Source of the DNA: a virus
Strand: one strand, 5' to 3'
Virus record (IMG/VR): IMGVR_UViG_3300020439_002656
Location: 1 to 31,223 of that record
Length of the DNA stretch: 31,223 nucleotides
Below the pieces are notes generated by a model. The model searched no databases. It was not told the DNA's origin and saw nothing but the letters and a program-made list of their open reading frames with translations. Shown here one piece after another: positions 4,702 through 23,360 of this stretch (positions are counted from its first letter, which is position 1; every line of letters starts with the position of its first letter). Position numbers and translations under genes: made by a program.

Positions 4702-4707
4702 GTTTTT

Positions 4708-5575: not shown

Positions 5576-5931
5576 TCGCTCACCACCCGCAATTTCATGC
5601 TCAGCCGCCAGCCCCGCACCGCGCGGGTCGCGGCCGTCAAATCGAAATCCATGATTTTAAAAATCACGGCCTCGCCAAGCGGCGTCGAAAGTCCGGAAAA
5701 GGACTTAAGGCCGCCGAAAAGAGTCGTCTTATAAAAAGACTTGAATGTCTGCGCCTGCGCTTCGGTTAGGTCCATTTCGTATGTGGTCTCCCCGCCGGCA
5801 AGGGTGGACCGGCGACGCATCACCGGGTCCCCCACGTCCGGCGTGAAGGTGATCCTGTTGTCCGCAAAGGGCTCATTGGCGCCAAACAACGGCTTTTGCG
5901 GCAATGCCGCGGGCCATATCTCCGCCATCAT
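5572..5931 (-). CDS. Minor tail protein (gpM-like)
   Basis: A 119-residue protein beginning MMAEIWPAALPQKPLFG. The IWPAALPQ type of opening is common in small siphophage tail proteins encoded directly after the tape measure protein. The rest is predicted beta-rich with no enzymatic motif. The start overlaps the tape measure stop by 4 bp (ATGA) and its own stop overlaps the next start in the same way. Position and size match lambda gpM, a tail tip component. The second in-frame ATG, 3 bp further in, is equally possible as the start. Confidence 0.72.
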   Translation of the reverse strand: MMAEIWPAALPQKPLFGANEPFADNRITFTPDVGDPVMRRRSTLAGGETTYEMDLTEAQAQTFKSFYKTTLFGGLKSFSGLSTPLGEAVIFKIMDFDLTAATRAVRGWRLSMKLRVVSE

Positions 5932-8444: not shown

Positions 8445-8778
8445 TCTCAGCCTTATCCCTTAAATCGCGAATTGCTTCGCGCCATCCCAACACCGCGCTG
8501 GGCCATAATTCCAGCACGGCGCGGCGGTCATATTGATATTCGTCACACAATTCCATCACATCACGGGTCCCGATCCGGTCGGGATCCGCGCCCAAAAAGC
8601 GATAGACCAGATCAAGCACCTGATGCCCCTCTATCGTCTTGGGCTCGTTTTCGATTTTCGGGCAGAATTCACCGCCTTCGCCCCTTTGTCCCCAGCTGCA
8701 CGGCGCGCCCTCTTCGCGGCAGGCGCGGCAGTATTCGTTTCCGGGGCCGGCATCCCATCTGATGCGGCCCCGGATCCG
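8434..8778 (-). CDS. Tail assembly chaperone -1 frame extension (gpT-like part of a G-T fusion)
   Basis: This frame is open without a stop from the slippery site at 8778-8784 down to 8434 and has no ATG. A GTG at 8619 exists but sits in the middle of the coding-like sequence. I read it as the C-terminal part of a frameshift fusion: 140 codons of the chaperone gene followed by 114 residues, 254 in total. The segment starts RIRGRIRWDAGPGNEYC and carries a Cys pattern C-x2-C-x6-C-x11-C that could bind metal. It then has a helical end, DVMELCDEYQYDRRAVLELW. It overlaps the tape measure start by 11 bp, exactly where lambda's T frame ends. Frameshift chaperones between tail tube and tape measure genes are standard in siphophages. 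Here the site itself is visible. Confidence 0.85.
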   Translation of the reverse strand, partial: RIRGRIRWDAGPGNEYCRACREEGAPCSWGQRGEGGEFCPKIENEPKTIEGHQVLDLVYRFLGADPDRIGTRDVMELCDEYQYDRRAVLELWPSAVLGWREAIRDLRDKAENGD

Positions 8779-9197
8779 TTTTTTTCCGCCGCCAAAAGCT
8801 CCCGCACGCCAAGATATTGGCTATGAAAGGATTTTCGGATCAGGGGCGCCAGGGTAAAGAGATCCTCGATCGCCTGTTCCGTGACCGCCGCGGGGACGTC
8901 ATTTTTATCATAAACGCCGGTCCAGGATATAATCCCGGCGACAGCGCGGCCAACGGCGAAACAATGTTGCGTCAGGGCAAACCGCGAATCCTCGTCCTCA
9001 AGATCCGGCAAACCGTCCAGGGATTCGCCGAAATCTTTCCGCCGGCGGTATTCTTCTCCAATCTCCCGCAGCTTGCGATTTAAATAGGTCTCTGCCAGCA
9101 GGTCCACATGGCCGTCATAAGGCCGCACCTCCACCGTGACGCCATAACCCAGATCAAGGTTGTAGGGCGCGCTTTTTAATCCCAGACGTATCGCCAT
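8631..9197 (-). CDS. Tail assembly chaperone (gpG-like), zero-frame product
   Basis: A 188-residue protein between the tail tube and tape measure genes, the place of the lambda G protein that coats the tape measure during tail assembly. Residues 1-135 look like the structured part. After the slippery Lys-Asn (codons 139-140) the zero frame becomes a low-complexity Ala/Lys/Arg tail (AAPAAKRARRAAGDKGAKAVNS), which is what one expects if a share of ribosomes leaves this frame. It starts 2 bp after the tube gene. It is probably made in excess over the fusion form. Assignment rests on position and the frameshift signal rather than on sequence recognition. Confidence 0.85.
   Translation of the reverse strand: MAIRLGLKSAPYNLDLGYGVTVEVRPYDGHVDLLAETYLNRKLREIGEEYRRRKDFGESLDGLPDLEDEDSRFALTQHCFAVGRAVAGIISWTGVYDKNDVPAAVTEQAIEDLFTLAPLIRKSFHSQYLGVRELLAAEKNGSGAASDGMPAPETNTAAPAAKRARRAAGDKGAKAVNSARKSKTSPRR
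8741..8784 (-). promoter_or_regulatory. Programmed -1 frameshift signal: slippery heptamer plus hairpin
   Basis: On the minus strand the zero frame reads GAA AAA AAC, giving the canonical heptamer A-AAA-AAC (8784-8778) in the correct phase. After a 4-nt spacer comes a hairpin: 5' arm 8773-8761, 6-nt loop 8760-8755, 3' arm 8754-8741. It has 9 GC-rich pairs, one bulged C, then 4 more pairs. Slippage by -1 enters the frame that stays open to 8434. Confidence 0.88.
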
Positions 9198-9199
9198 GA

Positions 9200-10144
9200 T
9201 CAGTAGCTCAGCACGTCATTGATCAGATTGACGGTCATCATCTGACCGGACACGGCGTCATAGGCCGCCTGAAACGCAAAATCGACCTCGATGCCGCCCG
9301 GCCCGGAAACCGGCGTCTTTGGGCGAGGGAGGAAGACCCGGTGAAAAATAAACTCTAGAAGATTGTCATTGTCGATTTTGTGCCGGAAGGTCAGTTCCAC
9401 GGGCGTATTGCTCGTGGCTTTGTCCAAAAGCGTACGGTCGGCAAAGCGGGTGCGGATATTTCCCGTCGCCGTCGCCTGGCCCGGGTCGATCCCGTCGATC
9501 AGGCCGTCCGCGCGGATGGTCTCCACCGGATCCAGGCCGTTGGAAAAACTCACGGACCCGCTCAATACATTCGCCGCCTGGGATCCGTCGATATCGATCT
9601 GCCCCTGGAATGTGCTGAACCGGGTCAATGCGTGATCCGCATCCGGGGTCCCGTGCTGCGATGTGCTGTTCGAGGTCTCGCCCTGCCCCATCACTTCAAG
9701 CTGCGCCTGCGCCTCACCGGTGCGCTGAAAATCCAGCTGCAGGCTGTTGACCAGCGCGCCGAGGGAGACGACATATTCCGGCACCTCCGGCATCACCGTT
9801 TCCAGGGAAAAGCTCGGCAGGCTCTGGGCGCCGGAAAGATAGGTATGCGTGACGACACCCATGTTATCGACGCTCGCGGGAGCGCCCAGCAACATTTTCA
9901 GCCAGAACCCGATATTGCGCAGATCCACGGGGACGACCAGCCGCCCCGATACGGAGACCGCGCCCAGCGAAGGGTCCTGGGCGTCGCGGCCTTGGCCCAA
10001 CAGGGTGCTTTCCTGCAAATCCTGCTGGGCGCGGACGTCCACGCTGTGAAAGGGGAATTTTCGAAACCCGCCGGACGGCTTGGTGCCGTAAACTGATTCT
10101 GCCGCGGCATAAAGTTTTGCGTTCGCGCCGGTCGCACGTGCCAT
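9200..10144 (-). CDS. Major tail tube protein (gpV-like)
   Basis: A 314-residue beta-rich protein beginning MARATGANAKLYAAAESVYGTKPSGGF, a pattern typical of phage tail tube proteins. Repeated VSGRLVVPVDLRNIGFWLKMLLG and VEVDFAF-like strands fit the tube fold. It forms the hexameric rings of the non-contractile tail. A clear Shine-Dalgarno (AGGAG, about 9 nt before the ATG) suggests strong translation, expected for the most abundant tail protein. Neighbours are the tail terminator upstream and the chaperone pair downstream. Confidence 0.88.
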   Translation of the reverse strand: MARATGANAKLYAAAESVYGTKPSGGFRKFPFHSVDVRAQQDLQESTLLGQGRDAQDPSLGAVSVSGRLVVPVDLRNIGFWLKMLLGAPASVDNMGVVTHTYLSGAQSLPSFSLETVMPEVPEYVVSLGALVNSLQLDFQRTGEAQAQLEVMGQGETSNSTSQHGTPDADHALTRFSTFQGQIDIDGSQAANVLSGSVSFSNGLDPVETIRADGLIDGIDPGQATATGNIRTRFADRTLLDKATSNTPVELTFRHKIDNDNLLEFIFHRVFLPRPKTPVSGPGGIEVDFAFQAAYDAVSGQMMTVNLINDVLSY

Positions 10145-10169
10145 TTTCTATTCTCCTGATGGTTGTGTT

Positions 10170-10613
10170 TTATCCGATCGGATTGTCCGATCCATATTCA
10201 AAATAAACACTGATAATCGCCGCCTTGATATTCTCTCCGCCCTCGACGGGCTCAAGCACAAGCCCCACCTCGCCGTCAAGCCGCGCCCAGTCCACCGTGC
10301 CGCCCAGCGTCTCCTGGCCCAGAAGGGCAAGGGGCATTTCCGATAAAATATCGTCCAAAACCTGGTCGCGGGCCGCGCTGTCGGCGGATTGCGCAAATAC
10401 ATTGATCTCTGCAGCCCAGGTGATCACATGATGCGGCGGGCCCAGATAGGATTCGCGCGTCACCTCTTCGCCGTCATGCAAGATCACAAGCCCCCCTTGC
10501 GGAATTTTCCTGCGGCCATCCTGATTGCGCACCACCTCGACGCCCAGCGGCTGAAAATGATCAATCAGCACTTGCGCCAATGCCCCGAGGGCCGCCTCAC
10601 GCCTTGTCGTCAT
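10170..10613 (-). CDS. Tail terminator protein (gpU-like)
   Basis: A 147-residue protein just before the tail tube gene, the position of lambda U. It starts with a helix (MTTRREAALGALAQVLIDHF) followed by beta strands, including HHVITWAAEINVFAQSADSAARDQVLDDILSEM, the same order as phage tail terminators of this gene neighbourhood. The role would be to cap the tail tube and join it to the head. The start lies 17 bp inside the end of the DUF6441 gene. Assignment rests on position and overall pattern. Confidence 0.78.
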   Translation of the reverse strand: MTTRREAALGALAQVLIDHFQPLGVEVVRNQDGRRKIPQGGLVILHDGEEVTRESYLGPPHHVITWAAEINVFAQSADSAARDQVLDDILSEMPLALLGQETLGGTVDWARLDGEVGLVLEPVEGGENIKAAIISVYFEYGSDNPIG

Positions 10614-11274
10614 GATCTTTCCAGTGTCTTAAAATACTGCGCGGCAGCGCCGCCTGCGCGCGGCGGGCATGGGAGAAAAATGAAATCTTCTTGGGAATTT
10701 TTACGCGCGAAACCAACCAGAACATCGGCGCCGTGACCCGGCCGCGCAAATCAGACCGCGCGCCGCGTGTTTTCGTGGCCTTCCGCGCCCGAATCTGCCG
10801 CACCCGGCCAGGATTCTTTCCCCCGGCCGCGCGCATTCCATCTGCGACCAAAAGACTTGCGCCCCGCGGACGATAGACAAAGCGCAACTTAATGCCCGTT
10901 GCTTTTTCAAATGCTGCCGGCGACGCCCGCTTGCCAAAGATTTTTTTCGGCGCATTCGGCGTCGGAATGGCCAGATAAAGCCCGTCGCGGCCCTTGATGG
11001 TCAGGCCTCGCTCAAAACCCTCCATGATGTGCGGGGCTTTAGTGTAGACCGCGCCCGCGGCGCCCAGGGATTGTCCGGATCGCGGGTAAATCTCGCCGCG
11101 CCAGCTGTTGGCGAGGCGTCGCCCAAGCCCCGCGCCCACGACATCGCGGCGGACGGCGGCCTTTAATCTTCCGACCTCGTCGCGGATGCCGGAAGTCACG
11201 GCCTTTTCGGCGCGGCGGACCTCAATCCGCATCTGTTTTTTAAGATCGCCGCGCAGCGCCGCTTTCAGCCTCAC
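10597..11274 (-). CDS. DUF6441-type neck / tail completion protein
   Basis: A 225-residue very basic protein. Its start MRLKAALRGDLKKQMRIEVRRAEKAV, the central LGRRLANSWRGEIYPRSGQSLGAAGAVYTKAPHIM and the DGLYLAIPTPNAPK segment match the DUF6441 family found in alphaproteobacterial prophages. Its place between the head-tail joining protein and the tail terminator corresponds to lambda Z. The start codon is GTG with GGGGGA about 6 nt upstream; it begins 3 bp after the previous stop codon. The codons for RRDVVGAG contain a 24-bp stretch repeated exactly in the non-coding region near the terminase gene. Confidence 0.8.
   Translation of the reverse strand: MRLKAALRGDLKKQMRIEVRRAEKAVTSGIRDEVGRLKAAVRRDVVGAGLGRRLANSWRGEIYPRSGQSLGAAGAVYTKAPHIMEGFERGLTIKGRDGLYLAIPTPNAPKKIFGKRASPAAFEKATGIKLRFVYRPRGASLLVADGMRAAGGKNPGRVRQIRARKATKTRGARSDLRGRVTAPMFWLVSRVKIPKKISFFSHARRAQAALPRSILRHWKDHDDKA
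11129..11152. repeat. 24-bp exact direct repeat, copy 1 (inside the DUF6441 gene)
   Basis: This stretch is identical and in the same orientation to 18479-18502. The flanking bases differ on both sides. Here it encodes RRDVVGAG on the minus strand; the second copy lies in the non-coding block upstream of the terminase genes. Confidence 0.9.
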
Positions 11275-11277
11275 GAA

Positions 11278-11586
11278 TTATCCCCCAAGCTCGATAATCC
11301 ACACGCGACCCCGCGGATCCTTCCGGGGCTCTCCCTTGACCACATGCCGGCGGCCATCAAAATCAAACTGGTCGGCGGGCCGCAGATCCGGAATCGCCTT
11401 GACGGGGACCCGGATGACAATTCCCCCGGTCACAAAATCCTCGCCGAAAATATCCGTCGTCTGATCCGCGACCGACCGGATAAAAAGCACGGACAGACCG
11501 GGCCCGGCGCCACCCTGATACCAGGTCGCAGGCTCCGTGAAATCCGGATTGCTGTAGACCCGGTCTGTCAGATCGTCGAATATCAT
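11278..11586 (-). CDS. Head-tail joining protein (gpFII-like)
   Basis: A 102-residue beta-rich protein (MIFDDLTDRVYSNPDFTEPATW...). Its size, position after the decoration protein and the ending RRHVVKGEPRKDPRGRVWIIELG fit the phage head-tail attachment family that closes the head and receives the tail. I place the start at the ATG at 11586, whose A is the last base of the preceding TGA stop (TGATG). An upstream TTG at 11589 would add one residue. No enzymatic function is expected. Confidence 0.75.
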   Translation of the reverse strand: MIFDDLTDRVYSNPDFTEPATWYQGGAGPGLSVLFIRSVADQTTDIFGEDFVTGGIVIRVPVKAIPDLRPADQFDFDGRRHVVKGEPRKDPRGRVWIIELGG

Positions 11587-11909
11587 CAAAGGTTAAGCCA
11601 CACCCGACCCACCGTATCGCTGGCCGCCGCGGCCCGGGCGGCGCAGCCGATCAGGGTATTCCCCGTCGCCGTGGTGGTGCAGTTTTTTGCCGCATCATCC
11701 CAATAGACCTTGGCCCCCTGGGCCCAGGCCTGGGCGCCGACCTTGGTAAGATCGAAAACCCCCTCGGTCATCACCTCCACCTCGTCGCCATTATCCGCAT
11801 CGCCCGTGGCCACGCCAAAAATGGAGCCTACAAGGACCCCGGCTCCGGACACAATCGCCGCGGGCGCGATCAGGGTCAGGGTCTTGCCCATCTGAATATA
11901 ATTTTTCAT
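11586..11909 (-). CDS. DUF2190-type capsid decoration protein
   Basis: A 107-residue small beta protein starting MKNYIQMGKTLTLIAPAAIVSGAGVLVG and containing WAQGAKVYWDDAAKNCTT. This matches the DUF2190 family, found beside major capsid genes and thought to act as capsid decoration or cement protein, like lambda gpD. A good GAGG ribosome site lies 8 nt before the ATG. A strong hairpin between this gene and the capsid gene (11944-11967) may adjust the ratio of the two products. Confidence 0.86.
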   Translation of the reverse strand: MKNYIQMGKTLTLIAPAAIVSGAGVLVGSIFGVATGDADNGDEVEVMTEGVFDLTKVGAQAWAQGAKVYWDDAAKNCTTTATGNTLIGCAARAAAASDTVGRVWLNL

Positions 11910-11943
11910 TTCAAAACCTCATTTTTTCAATTTCCACAAAATC

Positions 11944-11967
11944 AGGGCGGCCCCGAGGGGCCGCCCC
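11944..11967 (-). terminator. Hairpin between capsid and decoration genes
   Basis: A perfect 10-bp GC-rich stem with a CTCG tetraloop on the minus strand, 22 nt after the capsid stop codon. It is followed only by GATTTTG, so it is a weak terminator or an RNA-stabilising structure rather than a full stop. Confidence 0.6.
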
Positions 11968-11988
11968 TCAAGGCCGTTAAGGCGGGGA

Positions 11989-13995
11989 TCAGGCCCCCGC
12001 GTTTTTAAACATGCCGCGCCAATCGATCGCCGCCGCCGCGAAATCGTCGCGCACTTTAAGCTCGACGCCATCCACGTCAAAACCCACGCGGCTCTCCGTG
12101 TAAACGCCGGACTGCCCCTCCAAATAAGCATACTCGATTGTATCGATCATGGCCGGGTCGGCGACAAGATACCAGGCCGTCTCGCTGGCCGCGTCAAGAC
12201 GCGGATCGACCAACAACTCTAGGCTGCCCTTGAACGGGTTCTCATCGGCCGCCTTGGCCGGGACAATCTGGGTGGACAGGAATTTTTCCGCCTCCGTCTC
12301 CAGCGCCGCAGGCGTCAAAAGGAACCTCGGGCGGACCATGACCGGCGTCTTGCCGTCCAGGCCCTTTTGCGTGCGCATCTTCTTGCGCCCCTCGGAAAGG
12401 CTTGCCACCGAAATCGCGGCGGCCGTGCCCAGATTTTTATGATTGGCGTGGAACAACGCCGAGCCATCACCCATCAACGGATTGCCGGTGATGATGCCCA
12501 TCACGATACTGCCCTCAAGCTCCGCGGCCTGCCGTCCGAACATCATTGGCAGGCGACTGAAGGCGTCCAGATCGTCATTGATGATGGTCTGGCGCGTGAT
12601 GCCGATGATCTTGCCATAGGTCGCGAGCTTGTAGCTCTCTTTCGCTTCGCCGACGCTGCCGCGCTTGAATTCACCGGATTCATTGACTTTTTCAAGGCTC
12701 GGCGCTTCGCCCAGCTGCACCCGGGTGACTTCGCGGAAATCCGCCACGGTGACGCGCCGGGCAAAACGGGCATAGACCTGCTCCACGGCCTCATAACTGC
12801 GCCGCAGGGTCCGATTGACCGTATTGCCCAGGATGATCGGAAAATCGCTGGTGGTCATCATCCCCGCGCGCTCCATCCCCAACGCAATGGCCGCGACCTC
12901 GTTCCGGGTCATGCCGCGCGTCCGCACGCCGTTGACCTCGATACATTCCCGCGCCATGTCAATAAGCGACATGCCGCGATATTGCCGCGCCGCATCGCTC
13001 AACTCCACGGCGCCGGGGTTCGCGCGGTGCAGGAGCGCGGTCTCCATTCCGGCGCGACGCGTCTGAACTTCGTCCTGACCGCCGACCGGCATGGACACAT
13101 GCGTGCGCTGCTGATCTTCTTCCTGATCCGCGGCCCGCTCATCAAACATCCTGACCTTCGCCTCATCGACGCTCAGGCCCTCATTGATGTATCTGCCGGC
13201 GGCAGACTCCTCCAGCCCGAAGGACCGGACGGCGGCCATGATCCCCTGGATCCGCGTCCGCTCGGCGGCCCTGATTTCACCCTCATCAACCGCCGCAACG
13301 GGTTCGGGCGGAGACTCGCGGCCCTCATCCCGGGAAACATCGTCATTATGAGACCGATTTTCATCATGATCGGCGGCCCCGTCCGCTTTTTTGACATTCT
13401 TAGGCATCTCGTCAACCTCTTCTTTTGGGGCCTGGGCCCTCACCAATTCGCAGGGCATGCTCACATCTTCGCGCCGGCGGACCCCCGCGTCCACATCTGC
13501 CGGCACCGTCACAAAGGAGACCTCAAAGGGCTCCCAGTCCACGGCCCGATATTCATCGGGCTTGTCGTCATGTTCTGTAATTTCATATTTTCGGACCGAA
13601 TATCCGACCGAAATATTGCGCAAAACGCCGTCGGAAATATCTCGCCAGATGCCGTCCACCTCTTCGCGACCGGAGATCTTTAACCGCGCCATGGCCTCAT
13701 CGCCATCAATCCAGGCGTCCTCCACCACCCCGATCTGATCGCCGATGCGCCAGAAAGAATGGCTGTTCAGGACCGGCGCGCCCTTTTTAAGCCGCGCGAG
13801 GTCAAGATGTTGCGGGTCCAAGGATAATTCCTCGTAATATTTGCCCCGGCTCCAATTGTGCCGCAGCACCCGGGCCCCGGTGGAAAACACCACATCCACT
13901 GTCCGCTTTTCCGCGTCCATTGTCGCCGGCACAAAATTCGCTTCCCGCGTCTGCGCAGGCAGATCAATCGTCTGATTTTGATGTTTTTTCGGCAT
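11989..13995 (-). CDS. Prohead protease - major capsid protein fusion
   Basis: A 668-residue polyprotein. Residues 1-190 are an HK97-type (U35-like) prohead protease with the likely catalytic His79 in VLNSHSF and Ser129 in RNISVGYS, followed by WEPFEVSFVTVPAD. A charged linker (about 190-245) and helical delta-domain-like region (to about 300) follow, which may act as scaffold. Residues ~300-668 are the HK97-fold capsid protein (RGMSLIDMARECIE, PIILGNTVNRTLRRSYE, GDGSALFHANHKNLG, LLVDPRLD). The ATG at 13995 has GGAG 9 nt upstream; a GTG at 14016 without such a site would add 7 residues. The start overlaps the portal gene by 32 bp. Fused protease-capsid genes are known in alphaproteobacterial phages; maturation would need self-cleavage near residue 300. 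Confidence 0.93.
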   Translation of the reverse strand: MPKKHQNQTIDLPAQTREANFVPATMDAEKRTVDVVFSTGARVLRHNWSRGKYYEELSLDPQHLDLARLKKGAPVLNSHSFWRIGDQIGVVEDAWIDGDEAMARLKISGREEVDGIWRDISDGVLRNISVGYSVRKYEITEHDDKPDEYRAVDWEPFEVSFVTVPADVDAGVRRREDVSMPCELVRAQAPKEEVDEMPKNVKKADGAADHDENRSHNDDVSRDEGRESPPEPVAAVDEGEIRAAERTRIQGIMAAVRSFGLEESAAGRYINEGLSVDEAKVRMFDERAADQEEDQQRTHVSMPVGGQDEVQTRRAGMETALLHRANPGAVELSDAARQYRGMSLIDMARECIEVNGVRTRGMTRNEVAAIALGMERAGMMTTSDFPIILGNTVNRTLRRSYEAVEQVYARFARRVTVADFREVTRVQLGEAPSLEKVNESGEFKRGSVGEAKESYKLATYGKIIGITRQTIINDDLDAFSRLPMMFGRQAAELEGSIVMGIITGNPLMGDGSALFHANHKNLGTAAAISVASLSEGRKKMRTQKGLDGKTPVMVRPRFLLTPAALETEAEKFLSTQIVPAKAADENPFKGSLELLVDPRLDAASETAWYLVADPAMIDTIEYAYLEGQSGVYTESRVGFDVDGVELKVRDDFAAAAIDWRGMFKNAGA

Positions 13996-15496
13996 CGTCT
14001 TCTTCTCCCGCGCCACCTGCGGCGGCGACCTTTTCCGTTGATTTCATATCCACCCGTGCATCCGTGGTCAGCTTCAGGCCCTTTTCGTCCAGGATCTGAT
14101 TGATTTCCGCGATTTCCGCCAGATGCTGATCCGGATCCCGGCCGCGGGTGGAAAGCGACTGACGCAAGGTTTTCAGACCAGCGCGGATGGCGTTTTCCTC
14201 GGCCTGTTCGTCCTTCAGCGGATCGACCCACGCCCGGACCGGCGGGGTCCAGTTGGCGCGGGAAAACCCGGGAGGCCTTTTGCCCAAAAAGACCATGTTT
14301 TGATCAATCGCCGACCAGATTCGGCGACAAAGCTGATGCACCATCATATGATTCTGCCACATATCAAGGATCTGCCAGAATTCGACCTTGCCGCCGCGCA
14401 TCGACCCGTAATTGACCGCCTTAAGGTCCCCGGTCAGCTGCTCATAGGTGACGCCGATTCCGGCGGCAATCGCATGCAGCTGCGTATACATATAATCGCT
14501 ATACCCGGAAAATGCCGCCGGCGCCCCGAAGGATACTTCCTGGCCGTCCTTTAAGTTAAAAATCCGGCCGGGCGACAGCCGCTCCTGCAATTCGCCCTGA
14601 CTGTTTTTCGCCGCTTGGCCCGTCAGGCCGCCATGACCCAGCACCCCCTGATTCTTGACGAAAGCCACAAAACAGGCCTCGATTTTCTTGCGCACCAGTT
14701 CCGCGTCGTCATAATCATCCAGGTCGCGCATCTTCATAATGACCGGCGCGACCCACGGAACCCCATGCACCTGACCGGGCCGCAGCACGTCAAAGACCGG
14801 GATGATTTCTTCCGCCGGCACCCGGCGGCTGACAAAATTATTTCGACCGAACCCCGCGATCGCCTCTCCCGGATGCTCCGGGAACATCCAATAGGCGCGC
14901 CGGCGGCCATGGCGGTCAAATTCAACCCCCTGAATGATCACCCCGCCATCTTTCAAGGCTTCATTTTTTTCAAAATCCACGAAATCCGGCTCCAGGACTT
15001 CCAACTGCACCGGCACATCCAGGGCCCACGATGACGGCCGCAGGCGGACGCGCACCAAGGCCTCGCCGGATTCAAAGACCGTATTCATAATCAGCGCCTG
15101 GATGCCGTAAAAATCCAGCATTCCGGCCGGGTCGCAATTCTCCACAAAGGCCTGATATTGATCCATCACCAGTTTTTTATCGTCCGGCGATCCGCTGGAC
15201 AGATAAGGCGTGATGCCGACGCCCACCACATTGGATTTGATCACCCGTCCCGCGCGAGCGCCCCAGGCGCTGTTCCGCACCATGTCCCGCGACCGGGCCC
15301 GCAGGCGCGCGACCCACGGGCCGATTTCCGCATTCGCGGACGTGCCGTGCGCGACCCATCCTTCCGTCCGCCGTCCGGCCTTGCCTCCGTCATAGGCGCG
15401 GGCCATCTCCCGAAACGCCCTGCGATAAGACAACCGGTCCGCCGCCGCCCGGGGCGAAATCACCGACAGCGCGCGTTCAAAAAAATTCGGCTTCAT
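13964..15496 (-). CDS. Portal protein, lambda family
   Basis: A 510-residue protein. The N-terminal RRAFREMARAYDGG and RLRARSRDMVRNSAWGARAGRVIKSNVVGVGI segments are hallmark lambda-family portal sequences. LEPDFVD, GVEFDRHGRRRAYWMF and the region around YEQLTGDLKAVNYGSMRGGKVEFW complete the portal pattern. The dodecameric portal sits at one capsid vertex, and terminase pumps DNA through it. The C-terminal ~60 residues (after about 445) are charged and probably disordered. It follows the gpW-like gene by 9 bp and overlaps the protease-capsid gene. Confidence 0.95.
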   Translation of the reverse strand: MKPNFFERALSVISPRAAADRLSYRRAFREMARAYDGGKAGRRTEGWVAHGTSANAEIGPWVARLRARSRDMVRNSAWGARAGRVIKSNVVGVGITPYLSSGSPDDKKLVMDQYQAFVENCDPAGMLDFYGIQALIMNTVFESGEALVRVRLRPSSWALDVPVQLEVLEPDFVDFEKNEALKDGGVIIQGVEFDRHGRRRAYWMFPEHPGEAIAGFGRNNFVSRRVPAEEIIPVFDVLRPGQVHGVPWVAPVIMKMRDLDDYDDAELVRKKIEACFVAFVKNQGVLGHGGLTGQAAKNSQGELQERLSPGRIFNLKDGQEVSFGAPAAFSGYSDYMYTQLHAIAAGIGVTYEQLTGDLKAVNYGSMRGGKVEFWQILDMWQNHMMVHQLCRRIWSAIDQNMVFLGKRPPGFSRANWTPPVRAWVDPLKDEQAEENAIRAGLKTLRQSLSTRGRDPDQHLAEIAEINQILDEKGLKLTTDARVDMKSTEKVAAAGGAGEEDDAEKTSKSDD

Positions 15497-15505
15497 GTTT
15501 AAAAA

Positions 15506-15703
15506 TCAGTCCCTGCTAAATGACGTGACAATGGCCTGTGCGCCGGAGACGGAGGCGGACAATTCCCCCTCGACAAACTGGACGGCCCGCTTCAGATCGG
15601 ATGTGGAGCGGTACCGCACCCGCCGACCATCCTCTTCCACCTCCAGGACCCCGTTGGCGAGCGCCGTTTTGAGATTATCCAGATGTTCTTGTGTCACAGC
15701 CAT
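15506..15703 (-). CDS. Head-tail joining protein (gpW-like)
   Basis: A 65-residue protein, MAVTQEHLDNLKTALANGVLEVEEDGRRVRYRSTSDLKRAVQFVEGEL. An N-terminal helix, a beta hairpin and a second helix match gpW of lambda. It lies between terminase large subunit and portal genes, which is the lambda order A-W-B. The product stabilises packaged DNA in the head and prepares the portal for FII-type protein binding. It begins 3 bp after the terminase stop codon and has no obvious ribosome site, so coupling is likely. Confidence 0.88.
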   Translation of the reverse strand: MAVTQEHLDNLKTALANGVLEVEEDGRRVRYRSTSDLKRAVQFVEGELSASVSGAQAIVTSFSRD

Positions 15704-15706
15704 TTT

Positions 15707-17695
15707 TTAAATCCAGTTATCGCGGATATTTCCCAGAAAATCGTCCGCCCGCGACGATGGCGCAGTGCGGACATCTTCCGGCTCTTTTTCAACACCCGCC
15801 TCAGCTGAGGCGGGATCTTCGTAAAGACGGGAGGCCGCCAGGAATAAATCGCCCTGATCGTCCGGAATCTCCCGCGTCTGCATCAAATTGCGCCAGTCAT
15901 TTTCATCCATCAGCGACAGCCCCAGATGCTCGGCCGCCGCCATTGCATATATCCGGCAATCCAGAAGATGGTTCGGCCCGGACTGACGCCAGCTATGGAC
16001 TTCCCGGCCGTTCGCCTTGACCGTTTTTTTCAGATATTCGGACGTGATCTGCTTAAAAAAGTCGATTTCGTGGCCTTCGCAAAAAAAACAATAGCCAGGC
16101 GGATTGTCGTGCTCCCCTTCTTTGCAGCCTTTTTTGTCAAGATTCGCATAAAATTCTGATTTCAGGCCCCATGTCCCGACATGCCACAAATTGACGCCGT
16201 TTTTAATCACCTTGCCGTCATAGCCCACGTCCTGCGGGCTGGGCTTGCGGGTGATCGCGGGCGCCTGCCATCCGTCCGCGCCCTTGATCGCCAAGGCGTT
16301 CGGCATCCGCCGCGCCCAGGAATAGACCGCATTGGTGTTAAATCCGGAATCGACCGCGAATTTCTCAATCCCCCAGCTGTTGCCATAGGCGTCCGGATAG
16401 CGCCGCATATAAACCTGCGTCAGGTCCGCCCAGACCGGGCCGGTGCGGTCAGACGTGTCCCCGGTCAGAAAACCGTAATCAATCCCGTAACTGGTCCCGC
16501 CCGGTCCCCAGGCGACGACCTCATAATAAATTCCGTTGGCCTGCACGTCCGCCCCGGCGGTCAGAAACAGGCCGCCGGGCGGGATGGATTTTAGGCGGTA
16601 TTCTTCGCGGCGGGTATAAAGCCGCTGATAATCCGGGGCATCCCCCTTTTCTTCCCACGGCAACCCCAGATAGAGGTTGTAAAAAGCCTTCAGTTTGACC
16701 GGATTGTCCCGGGCCTTGAGGAACTTATCAACAATATCGTCCCACGGCACAAACGGGCTGATAAAAACATCGACGTGAAAACTGGGCTCCCGGCCCGGGC
16801 CGGGATTTGTCGGCACCCACCGCCCGGACGCCACCATGCTTTTTTTCTGATGCTCCTTGATTTCCGACCCGCAATGCGGGCAGCTGAAAAACGGCTCATA
16901 GGGTTTTTTCGTGCGGAAATGGAAAATCTTGTTGTTTTTATCGAAATGGAATCTAAATTCACCGCCGCAATGTGGGCAGGGCACATGATAAAACCGCATG
17001 TCGCCCGCCTCAAAGCCCGCGTCGATCCGCGACACGCCCTTGATCAACGGCGTCGATATTTTAAATTTTTTCCAGTCGCCGGTCTGGCGATACGCCATAA
17101 ACCGCCCGTCCGCCAGTTCTTCCGGATCTCCGTCATCGCCAACTTCCGCGGGCCAGCGGTCCACCTCGTCGTAATAGCCCAGCCGAATTGTCTTTGACGA
17201 CAGGGCGCTCGGCGAATTCGCGCCGGTCAGGATCAGGTAGCCGCCCGGAAAACGCTTGGTCATGGACGTGGATCCCTTGCCCGTCCCCGCCCGCTGATCC
17301 CGCACCAGTTTTTTTAATGGCGGGCTCGCCTCGATCAGGGGCTGGAATTTATCCTGAGCGAAATCCCGGGCATCGCCGTCCGTCGGCTGAATCAGCATTG
17401 AATTCGACGGGTGATACTTGATCGCATATCCGGCAAGGACCATCATTACGGTCGATAGCCCCGTTTGCGCCGATTTCCGAATACAAACCTCGTTGCAGGG
17501 GTGGTCCGGATCGCCGCACTCCAGGATTTCCCCGATATACGGCGTGTGCTCCAGGCTGTATTTATCGCCGGCGAACGGACCGTCGATCACCGTGATATTG
17601 CTTTCGGCCCAGGCGACAATGCCCTCCTTTTCCACCGGCGCGATGGCGGCGGCGGCGGTCCGGCCGACGACAATGGACGCTTCCGCAAAATTCAT
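15707..17695 (-). CDS. Terminase large subunit (gpA family)
   Basis: A 662-residue packaging motor with ATPase and nuclease domains. The Walker A-like loop is RKSAQTGLST at residues 73-82 and the Walker B region is RLGYYDEVDRWP near residue 170. Two CPHC pairs near residues 235 and 270 form the zinc-binding insert typical of the GpA family. The C-terminal half has nuclease-type acidic segments, including KFAVDSGFNTNAVY and the HLLDCRIYAMAAAEHL motif. The start overlaps the small subunit stop by 4 bp (ATGA). GpA-type terminases cut at cos, which supports a cos site upstream of the small subunit gene. Confidence 0.96.
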   Translation of the reverse strand: MNFAEASIVVGRTAAAAIAPVEKEGIVAWAESNITVIDGPFAGDKYSLEHTPYIGEILECGDPDHPCNEVCIRKSAQTGLSTVMMVLAGYAIKYHPSNSMLIQPTDGDARDFAQDKFQPLIEASPPLKKLVRDQRAGTGKGSTSMTKRFPGGYLILTGANSPSALSSKTIRLGYYDEVDRWPAEVGDDGDPEELADGRFMAYRQTGDWKKFKISTPLIKGVSRIDAGFEAGDMRFYHVPCPHCGGEFRFHFDKNNKIFHFRTKKPYEPFFSCPHCGSEIKEHQKKSMVASGRWVPTNPGPGREPSFHVDVFISPFVPWDDIVDKFLKARDNPVKLKAFYNLYLGLPWEEKGDAPDYQRLYTRREEYRLKSIPPGGLFLTAGADVQANGIYYEVVAWGPGGTSYGIDYGFLTGDTSDRTGPVWADLTQVYMRRYPDAYGNSWGIEKFAVDSGFNTNAVYSWARRMPNALAIKGADGWQAPAITRKPSPQDVGYDGKVIKNGVNLWHVGTWGLKSEFYANLDKKGCKEGEHDNPPGYCFFCEGHEIDFFKQITSEYLKKTVKANGREVHSWRQSGPNHLLDCRIYAMAAAEHLGLSLMDENDWRNLMQTREIPDDQGDLFLAASRLYEDPASAEAGVEKEPEDVRTAPSSRADDFLGNIRDNWI

Positions 17696-18375
17696 TCGTC
17701 AGATTCCGACATTTTTTCAAGACGCTCGGCCAAGGCCGTCCGCATGGCGCCAAGCCTCTCCTGCAAATAGACCTGTATCTCGCGGCGGTCCGTCATCGTC
17801 GCCAGATCCCCGGACACCGTTTTCGGCAACCGGTCAAGCCGGCTGGCGACCTCGCCAAAGGCCATCGCGATATGCTCTTGAACCCGCGTGACCTCGACAA
17901 GCTCGCCGGCATCCCGCGCCAACTGCAATTCCTTCCGCCGGGCGGACGCCTCGATATCCCGCGCGCGCCATTCCTGCAGCGGGCTGAGGGCGGCGGGCTC
18001 CAGCGGTAAATCTTCACCGACCGCCGGGTCCTGAATCGACGCCGCCTGAACATCATCCCGGGAGGACAGATCACCATCACATCCAATCATCTGGTCCTTG
18101 GCTTCAAGGCCGGCATGATTTCCTACTTTTACCGGATCCAGGTGGCTTTGGCGGTAGAGGCGATATTCGGTCATGCTGATCATCACGGACCGGCCCTTGC
18201 GGCCCTTGATCAGCGCCGGGTTCTTGTCCACGTCCCGTTTTACCGTTGACCGGTTGAGGCTCAGAATTTCGGCGGCACGGGACATGCTGACGATATCCCC
18301 GTCCGCAAGCGGCAACTCAGGCGCCGAACGATTATTTTGTCCCGGGCAATTGCCTTGCGTTGCCGACTGTTGCAT
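17692..18375 (-). CDS. Terminase small subunit (Nu1-like)
   Basis: A 227-residue DNA-binding packaging protein. A winged-helix type HTH is visible at about residues 27-60 (DIVSMSRAAEILSLNRSTVKRDVDKNP...). It is followed by an acidic linker and a helical C-terminal half (KELQLARDAGELVEVTRVQEHIAMAFGEVASRLDRLPKT), the usual Nu1 layout with a C-terminal large-subunit-binding end. The ATG at 18375 lacks a clear ribosome site. The ATG at 18288 is an alternative but would cut into the HTH. Three TGTTGCA boxes overlap its 5' end, as cosB sites do in lambda. Confidence 0.85.
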   Translation of the reverse strand: MQQSATQGNCPGQNNRSAPELPLADGDIVSMSRAAEILSLNRSTVKRDVDKNPALIKGRKGRSVMISMTEYRLYRQSHLDPVKVGNHAGLEAKDQMIGCDGDLSSRDDVQAASIQDPAVGEDLPLEPAALSPLQEWRARDIEASARRKELQLARDAGELVEVTRVQEHIAMAFGEVASRLDRLPKTVSGDLATMTDRREIQVYLQERLGAMRTALAERLEKMSESDE

Positions 18376-18731: not shown

Positions 18732-19355
18732 CTAGGCTTCGGAAAGCATGTCAAACTTTATCCCACATGTCAAGCCATCTAGTGAGACGTAATTAACATC
18801 TTCTGTCCACGGCGCGCGGGAATGATCAATCCCAGACACGACAAAGGACCGCAAGGCCCCGGGATTCTTGGCGAAATGATCATGGACGGCGGAAAGCCCA
18901 GCCCAGAAATCACCATACATCCGTCGGGCGAAGTCGATATTCTCCTGCGACAGCAATGACTTCACCAGGCAAGCATAAGGCCGCCGCCGGTTGATTTCAT
19001 CCCGATACAACACGACCGGACGGCCGCGATGATCCCGTACCGGCCCCAATTGCGGCCGCGCGGCTGGCATCCAATTCGGCGCGACGCCACCATGGCCGTA
19101 GTTGATCAGAGCCCCTATTTGAAAATGAGACAACTGCCGCACAACCTGGTCCACGGCTTCGGCGTCCGGATGCAGCGCCCCTTTGTCCGCACCAAAATAA
19201 TCCACAACTGCCCGCAATTCTAAAATTCGGCAGACACGGAATGTGCTTGTGGTCGCCCTTTGTGACCCCTCCACATCATCGGTGCTGCCGGCGTCTGCGC
19301 GCTGAACGCCATAAGTCCATTTAATCAATTCTTCGACCGTGACCTTGTTTTTCAT
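18732..19355 (-). CDS. Uncharacterised early phage protein
   Basis: A 207-residue protein, MKNKVTVEELIKWTYGVQRADAG..., that I do not recognise. It is soluble, with no signal peptide or membrane segment. It looks mixed alpha/beta, with a helical N-terminal part (FRVCRILELRAVVDYFG) and a Trp/Arg/Pro-rich middle. I chose the ATG at 19355 because GAGG lies 5 nt upstream. A GTG at 19394 would extend the protein into the TGTCCCA box array and is unlikely. It is the last gene before the early terminator and the first gene after the box array. A role in late control or packaging would fit the position, but nothing in the sequence shows it. Confidence 0.78.
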   Translation of the reverse strand: MKNKVTVEELIKWTYGVQRADAGSTDDVEGSQRATTSTFRVCRILELRAVVDYFGADKGALHPDAEAVDQVVRQLSHFQIGALINYGHGGVAPNWMPAARPQLGPVRDHRGRPVVLYRDEINRRRPYACLVKSLLSQENIDFARRMYGDFWAGLSAVHDHFAKNPGALRSFVVSGIDHSRAPWTEDVNYVSLDGLTCGIKFDMLSEA

Positions 19356-19377: not shown

Positions 19378-19611
19378 TGTCCCACCTGTCCCACTTACTT
19401 TTTACTGCTGGGACACCCCTAACTGATTGATTCTATTATTACTGTCCCACCTGTCCCAGCTGTCCCAGTATAAAATGATATATATACGCGCGGGGCTGCG
19501 CGCGTGTGCGGGGTTTTTGCTGGGACAGCTGGGACAGGTGGGACACTCGATTTAAATTCAATGGCTTACGCCTCTCGCATACTGGGACACTGGTGGGACA
19601 CTGGTGGGACA
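19378..19611. repeat. Iteron-like array of 12 TGTCCCA / TGGGACA boxes
   Basis: The 7-mer TGTCCCA occurs at 19378, 19387, 19443, 19452 and 19461. Its complement TGGGACA occurs at 19409, 19521, 19530, 19539, 19583, 19594 and 19605 (first base given). Spacing is 9 bp in the left and central groups and 11 bp in the right group. I noticed no other copy in the window. An 18-bp A/T-only stretch but for one G (19469-19486) lies in the centre. Regular spacing, an AT-rich core and the adjacent helicase gene suggest a replication origin. A regulator-binding array is the alternative. Confidence 0.85.
19443..19545. repeat. 26-bp perfect inverted repeat with structured centre
   Basis: Positions 19443-19468 are the exact reverse complement of 19520-19545; each arm has three 7-mer boxes at 9-bp period. 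The 51-nt centre holds the AT-rich run and then a GC hairpin (ACGCGC at 19486-19491, GCGCGT at 19500-19505). A large cruciform or RNA hairpin is possible. Confidence 0.9.
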
Positions 19612-19622
19612 CTTGCCCGCTT

Positions 19623-21077
19623 TTACGCCGTCTCATCACACCCCCAATCCATCGGGTGCCCGATCATATCTTCAAAATGCGCCCGACACTCATCCAGACC
19701 CGGCATGGTATAGCCCCACGCGCGGCTATGCACGCCGTCCTCCATCACCGTCCGCCGCACCCTGGCGGACCCCGGCGCGAGCTTATTTTTTATCATCTGC
19801 GCCAACTGGTTGTCCGGCAGCGGGAAGCGGATCCCCGTCTTTTCGCAATGTATTTGATAGGACGTCAAGGCCGTCCGCGTTTTGACGAAAGGGTACCAAT
19901 CCGCCCCGGAAATATGCACAGACCCCCTGCGCAAGCACTCAAACCACCATTGATAAACAGGGTCAAGGCTGTTCAGCTTCTGCTCCAACAGCGCCTCGGT
20001 CTTCGGGATATGCGCCAAGTCCACACTGTCCAGATCAAAGTCCATCAGCCAGGCCAGCAGCGCCTCATAACCCCCCGCCTCCATCTCATCATACAGCTTC
20101 CCGAAATACTCCCGATCCTGCTTTTTCTCTTCGCCGATGTCAAGGACGCAGAATCGCCGCTCGTCCATGCCCGCCGGCACGACAAAGTTGTGGTTTGAGG
20201 AAATCATCAAATGGATCCGGTTCTTGACCATGATCGGGTCCACACCTTTTTTCTCCACATACTGCCGGTCGGCCGTGACCAGACCCTTCAGCCGCCCCTC
20301 GGCTTTTTTATCCCCCGCCCAAAAACCCTCATCCGCCTGTAATAAAAGGCAACTTTGCATATGCGCGTTGAATTGCCCCAGAAGATATCGCGGATCGTCC
20401 GCCAGGCTGTAATGCCGGCCCAGAAGATGGCCCATCACCTTGCCCACCGTGGTCTTGCCCGATCCCTGCCCGCCCCGGATCACCAGCGCGGTGCCCAGCC
20501 TCTCTTCCGGGTGCTGCACCATATGCGCGAACCACCCCATCACCCAATCATATATGTGCGGATCGCCGCTGGCGACATTGTTAAGGATATGGTCAATAAA
20601 GGTCGGGCACTTGCGCTGAAAGTTTCCGGGATCGGGGTCCGGGGTAACGGTAAAGCCGCCCCACATATTATAAAACCGCCCCGGATCACTGCTGGGATTG
20701 AACACCAACCCCATATACTGCCGGCGGTCCTTGGCCGACAGCCAAAGCTTGGTATAGGGGATACGGACCTCTTTCATTTCCTCACCGTTGCGACCGGCAG
20801 GCTCTTGGGTGACATAGACCTTGTTGGCCATCCACTTGACGAAACTATCCACCGACAGAAAGCGGATATCCTTGTCCCCGTCCGAATCCTCGAATTCTTG
20901 CAGGATCATGGTCTTGTCACCGACAATGATCATGGCAAATTCCTCGTTCATCCGTTCGATGATCGATCCATAATCACCGCCACCGGGAAAAACGGTGACA
21001 TTGTTCTGAAACCGGGCGGCTATATCCTGTTCACCGCTGGATGTGTCCGGCCCTGATTTCGTCTTTTTGGTCGCCAC
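19623..21077 (-). CDS. Primase-associated helicase (DUF5906 / VapE-like, SF3 type)
   Basis: A 484-residue protein with a Walker A motif GGQGSGKTT at 202-210, a Walker B region LLLQADEGFW near 255 and a sensor-like motif HLMISSNHN near 295. This order fits the superfamily-3-like ATPase of phage primase-helicases (DUF5906, related to VapE). The N-terminal ~150 residues lack primase metal motifs, but the separate CHC2 primase is encoded two genes upstream. It probably unwinds DNA at the phage origin. The start is GTG with AGGGAG about 10 nt upstream, and the G of GTG is the last base of a TAG stop in the frame described at 21077-21303. The iteron-like array begins 12 bp after its stop codon. Confidence 0.88.
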   Translation of the reverse strand: MATKKTKSGPDTSSGEQDIAARFQNNVTVFPGGGDYGSIIERMNEEFAMIIVGDKTMILQEFEDSDGDKDIRFLSVDSFVKWMANKVYVTQEPAGRNGEEMKEVRIPYTKLWLSAKDRRQYMGLVFNPSSDPGRFYNMWGGFTVTPDPDPGNFQRKCPTFIDHILNNVASGDPHIYDWVMGWFAHMVQHPEERLGTALVIRGGQGSGKTTVGKVMGHLLGRHYSLADDPRYLLGQFNAHMQSCLLLQADEGFWAGDKKAEGRLKGLVTADRQYVEKKGVDPIMVKNRIHLMISSNHNFVVPAGMDERRFCVLDIGEEKKQDREYFGKLYDEMEAGGYEALLAWLMDFDLDSVDLAHIPKTEALLEQKLNSLDPVYQWWFECLRRGSVHISGADWYPFVKTRTALTSYQIHCEKTGIRFPLPDNQLAQMIKNKLAPGSARVRRTVMEDGVHSRAWGYTMPGLDECRAHFEDMIGHPMDWGCDETA

Positions 21078-21303
21078 TAAAACAATACTCCCTGTGGATC
21101 CTTTTTCTTTTTATGGCCCGCCGGCGGTATGGATGGCGGCGGGGTGAATTTTTTGGCGGGGCGCTCCCAGTCGTCTAAGTCCGGGTGGTTTTCACTAACC
21201 ACCAAAATCCCGGTTTCCTTCCAGCCGTCCCGGGCAACCTGATCCGGATCCCGTCGCGTTGTATGACATCTGGACAGGCTGCTGCGGACAGTGATTTTTT
21301 TGG
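21077..21303 (-). CDS. Coding-like -1 frame overlapping the methyltransferase 3' end
   Basis: In the -1 frame relative to the methyltransferase, about 74 codons are open from the A7 run (21301-21295) to a TAG at 21079-21077. That stop overlaps the GTG start of the helicase gene (TAGTG), the coupling seen elsewhere in this operon. The sequence (KKITVRSSLSRCHTTRRDPD, then ARDGWKETGILVVSENHPDL, then a Pro/Lys tail) looks more protein-like than the zero-frame end of the methyltransferase. It has no ATG, GTG or TTG near its beginning and a stop 7 codons before the run. It is therefore either a -1 frameshift extension of the methyltransferase (352 residues in all), a gene broken by a lost A, or a separate gene with an unusual start. 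Confidence 0.5.
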
Positions 21304-22134
21304 CCGCCTTTGCTTTTTCAGGTTTTCAAACATCGGGATCTGTTCCGGCCCGGGATCCGGCACAAACATATCTTCATAAGCCCGCCGGATCCGGTCACAG
21401 GCCACATCGAAATAGTCCGGGTTTTGCTCGATGCCGATAAACCGCCGACCGGACTTTACACAGGCCACGCCAGTGGTCCCGGACCCCATGAATGGATCAA
21501 TGATCACCTGGCCCTTGTTTGTGAAATCTTCCAAAATTTCAAACATCAACCGCCAGGGCTTTTCAGTCGGGTGCCGACCATCACGATCCGGCGGGTTAAC
21601 CAAATGACTGTAAACCCCCCGCTTGCCGCCGGCGTTCCAGGTGGAATATCCCCGACCCGCCCAGCCGCAGACAAAATTTTCGTATCCCATGGCCGGGCCC
21701 TGCCCATTAAGCTGCGGGGTGCTGTCCGGCTTGACCCAAATACAGGCGCGCTTGTATTTTATGGGGGAGATATTTATCACATCAGCCCAGCGTCCGACCC
21801 CTTCCGGGGTGCAAAAAGCAATAAACCAGCCGCGGCAAAGATCGCCGACCTGGCTCGTCACATCTTCCCGGATTTCATCAATGGCGGCAAAGTCAAGTCC
21901 CTTGACCGGTGCCCGACCGTCAGTCCTGGTCCGCTGCATGGCCCTTGACTTGGCGTTGTGCATAAAAGCCTCGTATGGCGGATCAAAAATCGCATGGTCC
22001 ACAGGGTCCAGGCCGGACATCACTTCCAGGCAGTCGCCCAGGATCAAAATACAATCCCCGATCACCTCGATGCGCAGCGCGCCGGGGATCCGGTATTCTT
22101 CAGACTGGCCGGGACATGGGGCAATACAGGTCAT
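21175..22134 (-). CDS. DNA methyltransferase, beta class (N6-adenine or N4-cytosine)
   Basis: A 319-residue enzyme. Catalytic motif IV is DPPY at 51-54 and the AdoMet-binding motif I is DPFMGSGTTG at 213-222. The order IV before I defines the beta class, to which CcrM-type adenine enzymes belong. A second-half TEKPWRL motif (190-196) matches the family. It may protect phage DNA from restriction or alter regulation. The start overlaps the primase stop by 4 bp (ATGA). The last ~40 residues in this frame (from about 280, IQRDGIRIRLPGTAGRKPGF) look unlike a natural C-terminus, and a better frame opens at an A7 run. The recognition sequence cannot be told from the protein. Confidence 0.92.
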   Translation of the reverse strand: MTCIAPCPGQSEEYRIPGALRIEVIGDCILILGDCLEVMSGLDPVDHAIFDPPYEAFMHNAKSRAMQRTRTDGRAPVKGLDFAAIDEIREDVTSQVGDLCRGWFIAFCTPEGVGRWADVINISPIKYKRACIWVKPDSTPQLNGQGPAMGYENFVCGWAGRGYSTWNAGGKRGVYSHLVNPPDRDGRHPTEKPWRLMFEILEDFTNKGQVIIDPFMGSGTTGVACVKSGRRFIGIEQNPDYFDVACDRIRRAYEDMFVPDPGPEQIPMFENLKKQRRPKKSLSAAACPDVIQRDGIRIRLPGTAGRKPGFWWLVKTTRT

Positions 22135-23360
22135 GCGGCGGTCTCCCTGTCGTCATGGGTCAAAAGCATATCGTTAAAGTCCTTGCCCTGGGCCGGTGGA
22201 ACAATCACCACATCCAGCCCCAGGCGCTGAAACCGGGCCCGCGACCGCGCCAGCAAACAACGCGCCACTTCCGGATCCTTGTTATCTCCGTCCGGGCATA
22301 GCCAGACTTTGGTCACATCATCCGGCAAAACAATACCGGGGCGGGCCATGTCGGGCTTGATGGACGGCAGGCGTTTTTTACCATCCGGACGGAAAGCCAG
22401 CCGCCCCTTGCCCTTGCCAGATCCGGCCATATTGCCAAAAGACAAGGCGGCCCAGACCGGCATCCCGCCACCCTTTTCCGGCGGCACGTCGGCCATGGCC
22501 TGCATAATGGAAAGCCCGGTTTCAATGCCTTCGCAGATCGCTATTTCCTTGCCGGGCTTCCCGTCAATCCGGTCGCGGGGATCCGCCAACCGGGCCGCGC
22601 CCTGGAAACAGGCCCCCATCATCTTCTTGGCGGATTTCATACGGTCGGACTTGACCATAACCATGGGAATATCTTCTCGCCGCGCGGCAGTTAGCGCCGC
22701 TTCCCGCGGATAGTCATCAACGGGCCGGCAGGCCAGAAAGGTCCGATGCAATCCGGAAATTTTGCCATCCGGCCCGGTAACGGCCGTCACCATGCAGGGA
22801 TGATGGTGACCGGTTTCCCCGTCATACTGCTTGGCCTGATAGCGGATGCACCAGGGCAGTCCCCCGAACCGCCGCACATCGATGCCGCGGCCCAGCAGAT
22901 ACATTTCCACCGGCGCCAGGTGGCTGTCTGACGCCTTGTAAAATCCGGTTTCCGCCCGGGCGCGCTGGCGGACTTTTTCCGCCTCCACGTCTTCCGCCGC
23001 TTGCCGCGCGATAATCGGCTGCGCCCGCCGCGCGGGCAATCTGTCCGGCGATGCGGCGGCGTCCGGATGCACGAGACCCGCCATATCCGCCAGCGCGCTG
23101 AGCGACCGCATGAAGTCCCAACCCTCGTAATTCCTCAGGAAATCAATCTGATCCCCATGCGCACCGCAGCCGAAACAATGATAAAAGCCCTTGCGGTCAT
23201 TGACGGTGAAGCTGGGCGTTTTTTCCGTATGGAACGGACACAAGCCCATATGCTCCACCCCCTCACGGCGCAGCGGCACATAGCGACCGATCACCTCCAC
23301 CAGGCTGGTCCGGCTCTTTACATTCCGGATAAAATGAGAATCAAAGTGGTGACTTGACAT
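22131..23360 (-). CDS. DNA primase with CHC2 zinc finger and Toprim domain
   Basis: A 409-residue DnaG-type primase. The CHC2 zinc ligands are Cys41, His44, Cys62 and Cys65 (CPFH ... CFGC). A Toprim-like region follows at about 265-365, with the acidic motif AICEGIETGLSI and the later VWLCPDGDNKD carrying the DxD pair. The protein is shorter than bacterial DnaG and lacks a DnaB-binding C-terminal domain, common in phages that encode a separate helicase, here two genes downstream. AAGGA lies 9 nt before the ATG. It overlaps its upstream neighbour by 20 bp. Confidence 0.92.
   Translation of the reverse strand: MSSHHFDSHFIRNVKSRTSLVEVIGRYVPLRREGVEHMGLCPFHTEKTPSFTVNDRKGFYHCFGCGAHGDQIDFLRNYEGWDFMRSLSALADMAGLVHPDAAASPDRLPARRAQPIIARQAAEDVEAEKVRQRARAETGFYKASDSHLAPVEMYLLGRGIDVRRFGGLPWCIRYQAKQYDGETGHHHPCMVTAVTGPDGKISGLHRTFLACRPVDDYPREAALTAARREDIPMVMVKSDRMKSAKKMMGACFQGAARLADPRDRIDGKPGKEIAICEGIETGLSIMQAMADVPPEKGGGMPVWAALSFGNMAGSGKGKGRLAFRPDGKKRLPSIKPDMARPGIVLPDDVTKVWLCPDGDNKDPEVARCLLARSRARFQRLGLDVVIVPPAQGKDFNDMLLTHDDRETAA

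Follow-up and report, generated by a model that had tools for sequence, protein, structure and literature searches.

A twelve-box TGTCCCA array 3' of a DUF5906 helicase gene as the likely replication origin of a temperate tailed phage

Introduction

What is the function of a dense cluster of one 7-mer beside the helicase gene of a phage, and which protein reads it? The question is raised by the window, by which is meant the whole stretch of DNA analyzed here, an IMG/VR virus record of 31,223 bases, in which copies of TGTCCCA are crowded at 19378-19611. The original prediction regarded this array as a candidate iteron-like phage origin, perhaps bound by the neighboring helicase or by an adjoining 207-residue protein. 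The comparative evidence presented below supports the candidate well, and we infer from it that the array would start replication. The open-access literature searched (subscription papers being outside its scope) contained no prior description of such phage origins, and TGTCCCA was found there in unrelated text or primers only.

Results

Genomic context of the array

The window reads as a temperate tailed phage. The genes recognized encode an integrase, an S24/CI-like repressor, a CII-like activator, a CHC2/Toprim primase, a DNA methyltransferase, a DUF5906 helicase and both terminase subunits, and portal-, capsid- and tail-like ORFs were identified by inspection on the minus strand at 1-17695. 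A PICI satellite identity was rejected for the window because a large terminase and portal-, capsid- and tail-like ORFs are present. The CHC2 zinc-finger/Toprim primase (22131-23360), the proposed partner of the helicase, the N6/N4 DNA methyltransferase (21175-22134), which lies between the primase and helicase genes, and the DUF5906 helicase of 484 aa (19623-21077), the proposed self-loading initiator, are all encoded on the minus strand. The first gene past the array, also on the minus strand, encodes the 207-residue protein (18732-19355), which has a weak match to PHROG 9306; the small and large terminase genes are located at 17692-18375 and 15707-17695. No Rep_3-like initiator family was detected among the ten window proteins scanned, and no DnaA box was found near the array, the nearest TTWTNCACA being 2.3 kb off.

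Organization of the array

Thirteen exact copies of TGTCCCA occur in the window, and twelve of them lie in both directions within the 234 bp at 19378-19611, as originally predicted. The mean for shuffled sequence was 3.5 copies per whole window, 13 copies were reached by no shuffle, and no 6- to 8-mer was repeated as densely anywhere else in the window. The remaining copy is a lone box at 30053, and no second TGTCCCA array was found within the window, which may be an incomplete record. The claim that the array adjoins the helicase gene was borne out, with the added detail that it sits on the 3' side of this gene (gene end 19623), 11-12 bp from the helicase stop and before the start of the 207-residue gene.

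Read on the plus strand, the box orientations are ++ - +++ / --- ---. The half distal to the helicase (19378-19467, plus strand) carries boxes at 19378+, 19387+, 19409-, 19443+, 19452+ and 19461+ in the canonical order ++-+++, and the proximal half (19521-19611, minus strand) carries boxes at 19521-, 19530- and 19539- with a 9-bp period and at 19583-, 19594- and 19605- with an 11-bp period. The box spacing shows both predicted periods, one of 9 bp within each triple and one of 11 bp between the boxes at 19583, 19594 and 19605. A 26-bp perfect inverted repeat (19443-19545) spans the inner triples, and its arms at 19443-19468 and 19520-19545 proved to be exact reverse complements that together hold six boxes, as had been claimed. 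The predicted A/T-rich core was also found: the 51 bp between the arms start with an A/T-rich 18-mer, TATAAAATGATATATATA (19469-19486), which lies beside the inner triple and is a candidate unwinding element, and then contain a G/C-rich palindrome read from the sequence as ACGCGCG-GGGCTG-CGCGCGT (19486-19505). The GC skew of the window showed no switch at the array, a result that was counted against an origin and is uninformative.

Box arrays lie 3' of helicase genes in other phages

Among the matches listed, viral contigs with paired boxes (TGTCCCANNTGTCCCA) indicated that TGTCCCA is not special to the phage in the window, and at least about 60 loci with four or more boxes inside 400 bp were obtained. 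The symmetric core was present in 14 bacterial-genome contigs labeled with several phyla, some of these contigs being metagenome bins whose phylum labels may be misassigned. Genomes with TGTCCCA arrays were labeled Proteobacteria, Bacteroidales, Oscillospiraceae, Microbacterium and Sandaracinus, and a reversed control pattern gave zero matches in the 13 genomes checked. TGTCCCA pairs were observed on five contigs (C4, C5, C27, C32 and C41) of one Bacteroidales genome, G003, perhaps representing several related prophages that share an origin box. Searched by blastn, phages and E. coli genomes yielded matches to the array at chance level only, and one E. coli match (L126) was rejected, as no replication gene adjoined it. 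Single-protein queries with the helicase and the 207-residue protein found no relatives in viral contigs; an alignment query did succeed.

Clustering of the neighboring proteins placed TGTCCCA arrays 3' of replicative helicases of the VapE, AAA_25 prim-pol, DUF927 and DUF5906 groups, and in the TGTCCCA-selected set the array was 3' of a VapE-cluster protein in 51 of 51 cases. In a box-blind search, 80 VapE and 80 DUF5906 relatives were taken from IMG/VR by protein, and repeated 7-mers were sought de novo, an array being defined as five or more copies of a 7-mer within 600 bp of the helicase gene. The search beside other DUF5906 genes that the original prediction had proposed thus revealed arrays 3' of the helicase in 65/80 DUF5906 and 43/72 VapE relatives, sets that may include close kin because just near-identical pairs were removed. 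Arrays were found 5' of the helicase in only 4/69 DUF5906 and 1/67 VapE relatives, and shuffled sequence hardly ever attained five copies.

About 40% of the VapE relatives (L217-L226, L233-L240 and others) had no array 3' of the helicase, with a conserved C-terminal domain, and their origin may lie elsewhere; these and some array-less DUF5906 relatives were counted against the origin reading. No array was detected at the YuA-like helicase relatives L127-L129. Four loci (L033, L050, L113 and L121) were left out as origins because their boxes lie within a long reading frame and are probably coding repeats. An array of CTGTTCAC/GTGAACA boxes was observed near a VapE gene at L207 (2582-2918); we take these boxes to resemble the P4 iteron.

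The layout is conserved and the box sequence varies

With a motif model, on which the box calls in relatives hinge, the modal copy number in DUF5906 arrays was 12 (34/68), and 57/68 arrays were within one copy of 12. In the de novo search, the exact copies of any 7-mer never exceeded 12. The commonest box order in relatives, ++-+++---+--, is a mirror image of six plus six, from which the proximal half of the window's array (--- --- with an 11-bp period, instead of --- + --) differs, a point counted against the origin reading. The gaps are near-constant at 9, 21 or 31, 34, 9 and 9 bp, mirrored about a center of 46-135 bp, and roughly one helical turn separates the alternative gaps of 21 and 31 bp. 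The helicase-distal fifth of the central spacer averaged 57% A+T across 69 related arrays, versus 34% in the flank; the A/T-rich part is thus at the helicase-distal end of the center, likewise in the window. The box variants in relatives included TGTCCCA, TGTCCAA, TGTCCGA, TGTCCTA, TGCCCCA, TGTCAGA, TGGCAGA and others.

The box covaries with the C-terminal domain of the helicase

In a non-redundant set of 42 DUF5906 phages, every box base was compared against all 437 helicase columns. For the three box bases with useful variation, the best column was always in the helicase C-terminal domain. Arginine at residue 439 was found with C6 in 17/18 phages and otherwise in 4/24 (p = 7 × 10−7; next column, 2 × 10−3), and T, S, E, D or K at this residue occurred mostly with A6. 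Lysine at residue 441 was found with C3 in 9/9 and otherwise in 4/33 (p = 1.6 × 10−6), and threonine at residue 423 with C8 in 30/33 and otherwise in 0/9 (p = 5 × 10−7; next column, 1 × 10−3). Between L346 and L358, whose motors are 89% identical, R439 changed to S together with C6 to A6, and between L320 and L329, R441 changed to K together with T3 to C3. Among independent sister pairs, residue 439 had switched in 7/10 pairs differing at base 6 and in 0/11 not differing. More conservative sister-pair swap tests gave p = 0.008 for residue 439, p = 0.03 for residue 423 (modest) and p = 0.06 for residue 441 (not significant), and given this uneven support part of the association may reflect shared ancestry.

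The rule was fixed before the proteins of new loci were read, and scans for TGTCCAA and TGCCCCA arrays were then carried out. Both R439 and K441 were found in 5/5 held-out TGCCCCA phages and K439 in the single held-out TGTCCAA phage, and base 8 agreed with residue 423 in 6/6 held-out DUF5906 phages. The same trend was seen at the W-x-R/K-x motif of VapE helicases, with R accompanying TGTCCCA and K accompanying TGTCCAA. Profile comparison of the DUF5906 and VapE C-terminal domains detected no similarity beyond the wing motif, and the VapE trend is only suggestive because the two domains are not alignable as homologues.

The covarying residues map to a predicted winged helix. The proposed box reader is the C-terminal domain at residues about 396-460 (19698-19892, minus strand), delimited by predicted secondary structure, within which residues 423, 439 and 441 are encoded on the minus strand at 19809-19811, 19761-19763 and 19755-19757, respectively. 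In the AlphaFold model of the helicase (pLDDT 88), residue 423 starts helix 422-433, the probable recognition helix. The hairpin 438-446/449-457 forms the wing of the winged helix, and its first strand carries residues 439 and 441. Among solved structures, the NrS-1 PrimPol helicase region and SaPI5 PriRep1 have the most similar folds.

A helicase that reads the boxes with its own C-terminal end would change together with them, and the covariation of the box with three C-terminal residues therefore indicates that the DUF5906 helicase is very probably the binder. Of the two binders originally proposed, the helicase is thus supported by the covariation and the held-out phages. The 207-residue protein is not: it has no detectable relative beside the other TGTCCCA arrays compared, nor in 50,697 phage records, and is unlikely to be the binder. 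No common accessory gene that could take this role emerged from clustering of the array neighbors.

Other readings of the array

Iterons often serve in copy-number control, and P4 replication requires crr, which is distant from ori. The array might by analogy be a replication-control, incompatibility or partition site, comparable to plasmid iteron control loci or P4 crr, instead of a start point. However, a 12-box mirror layout round an A/T-rich element 3' of the initiator is the layout of SaPI/PICI origins, and the window has no second array, so a control site is considered quite improbable. The 207-residue gene and the packaging genes are all minus-strand genes with the array upstream of them, and repressor arrays with inverted boxes exist; an operator for the 207-residue gene and the downstream late genes, bound by a phage regulator, would suit this position. 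Such an operator is nevertheless distinctly unlikely, as the box changes with three helicase C-terminal residues and the gene on the far side varies between phages while the helicase is constant. Helicase binding could also repress transcription as a side effect.

TGTCCCA was also found beside helicases with the unrelated motors AAA_25, DUF927 and DUF3987 (L009, L017, L028, L044, L047, L115 and others). No reader common to these helicases emerged, and their arrays were counted against the origin reading; they point to either converging C-terminal domains or exchanged origin modules. Recognition of TGTCCCA by a host DNA-binding protein would account for one box with VapE, DUF5906, AAA_25, DUF927 and DUF3987 helicases across several phyla, but there is very little to recommend it, since related phages differ in their box, the box covaries with the helicase, and one host genome carries two different boxes. 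This Gemmobacter genome (G012) has two helicase-origin units, L213 (G012:C35) and L211 (G012:C9), in which a CCGTCTA array and a TGTCCCA array, respectively, each lie 3' of their own helicase, an arrangement consistent with co-resident elements having private origins. The small terminase gene is about 1 kb from the array, but recognition of the array by its product as a packaging (pac-like) site is scarcely credible, as the array accompanies and covaries with the helicase in relatives and the large-terminase cluster of this phage was near only 8/111 array loci. The covariation is left unexplained by the control-site, operator and packaging readings alike, which are disfavored for this reason.

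Discussion

Sequence comparison supports the presence of the array, its 3' position in most relatives, its tendency to twelve copies in mirror order and its covariation with the C-terminal domain. It is highly likely on these grounds that the array serves this temperate tailed phage as replication origin and that the adjoining DUF5906 helicase is the initiator, reading the boxes by its C-terminal winged helix. Each TGTCCCA(NN) box would be bound by one helicase subunit through its winged helix, in which residue 423 starts the probable recognition helix and residues 439 and 441 lie on the first wing strand. One helicase hexamer would assemble on the six boxes at either side of the dyad, and the full set of twelve would thereby place a double hexamer head to head. 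Opening of the A/T-rich stretch that separates the inner triples and self-loading of the helicases would come next, followed by the phage CHC2/Toprim primase and host polymerase.

The closest parallels are the origins of satellites. SaPI Rep uses its C-terminal domain to bind iterons that immediately follow its own gene, apparently as two hexamers (PMC7581432, which cites Ubeda 2007 for the SaPI origin). Gram-negative PICIs have the same layout, and plasmid maintenance with EcCICFT073 needed both ori and pri-rep (PMC6092414). That 2018 PICI survey knew this origin layout only from satellites (PMC6092414). As in SaPI/PICI origins, two iteron sets flank an A/T-rich region that directly adjoins the 3' end of the gene for a self-loading initiator helicase, with six boxes on each side of 19469-19486 in the window and likewise in relatives; the iteron sequence varies between elements, the helicase fold resembles SaPI5 PriRep1, and the C-terminal domain appears, here from covariation, to be the DNA reader. 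Unlike a satellite, the window is a complete phage with structural and both terminase genes, its DUF5906 helicase stands alone, the CHC2/Toprim primase being a separate protein, and its family has a 6+6 mirror layout with conserved gaps. Judged by this analogy, the array is probably an origin of the SaPI/PICI type, here in a full tailed temperate phage.

P4 alpha, a D5/SF3-like primase-helicase, uses its C-terminal winged helix to bind short repeats (PMC4234260), as is proposed for the helicase in the window. P4 differs in having primase and helicase in one protein, whereas the primase is a separate gene (22131-23360) in the window, and in having a second, distant repeat region (crr), whereas the possibly incomplete record shows one array. 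The SCCmec helicase Cch2 has a D5-type motor, and its isolated C-terminal domain binds direct repeats that closely follow the gene (PMC7581432), but only three iterons are present there, compared with twelve in mirror order in the window. Of the proteins with solved structures, the NrS-1 PrimPol helicase region, compared on the protein alone, is closest in sequence and fold, and it is fused to a primase-polymerase, unlike the helicase in the window. The RepA/RepE (Rep_3) iteron plasmids share multiple short repeats beside an A/T-rich stretch, but the window has no Rep_3 initiator or nearby DnaA box and its proposed initiator is the helicase. The noted absence of a RepA-like initiator therefore stands, and the comparison with RepA plasmids is better replaced by one with SaPI/PICI/P4-type origins, in which the initiator is the helicase itself.

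Many phages and prophages that encode DUF5906 or VapE helicases show the SaPI/PICI-like layout, and a likely replication start and initiator are hereby provided for a phage class with a helicase family that Pfam still lists under 'unknown function'. It may tentatively be proposed, as a serious possibility, that the origins of a large class of temperate phages are twelve-place seatings for a double hexamer, with one box per subunit, mirror order, helical-turn spacing and a simple residue-base code, and that their specificity drifts quickly to give private origins. If each of a few residues in the wing and helix specified one base, origin specificity would drift fast and co-resident prophages would keep private origins. 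The covarying residues would then constitute a recognition code that might underlie exclusion or crosstalk among phages and satellites sharing a host.
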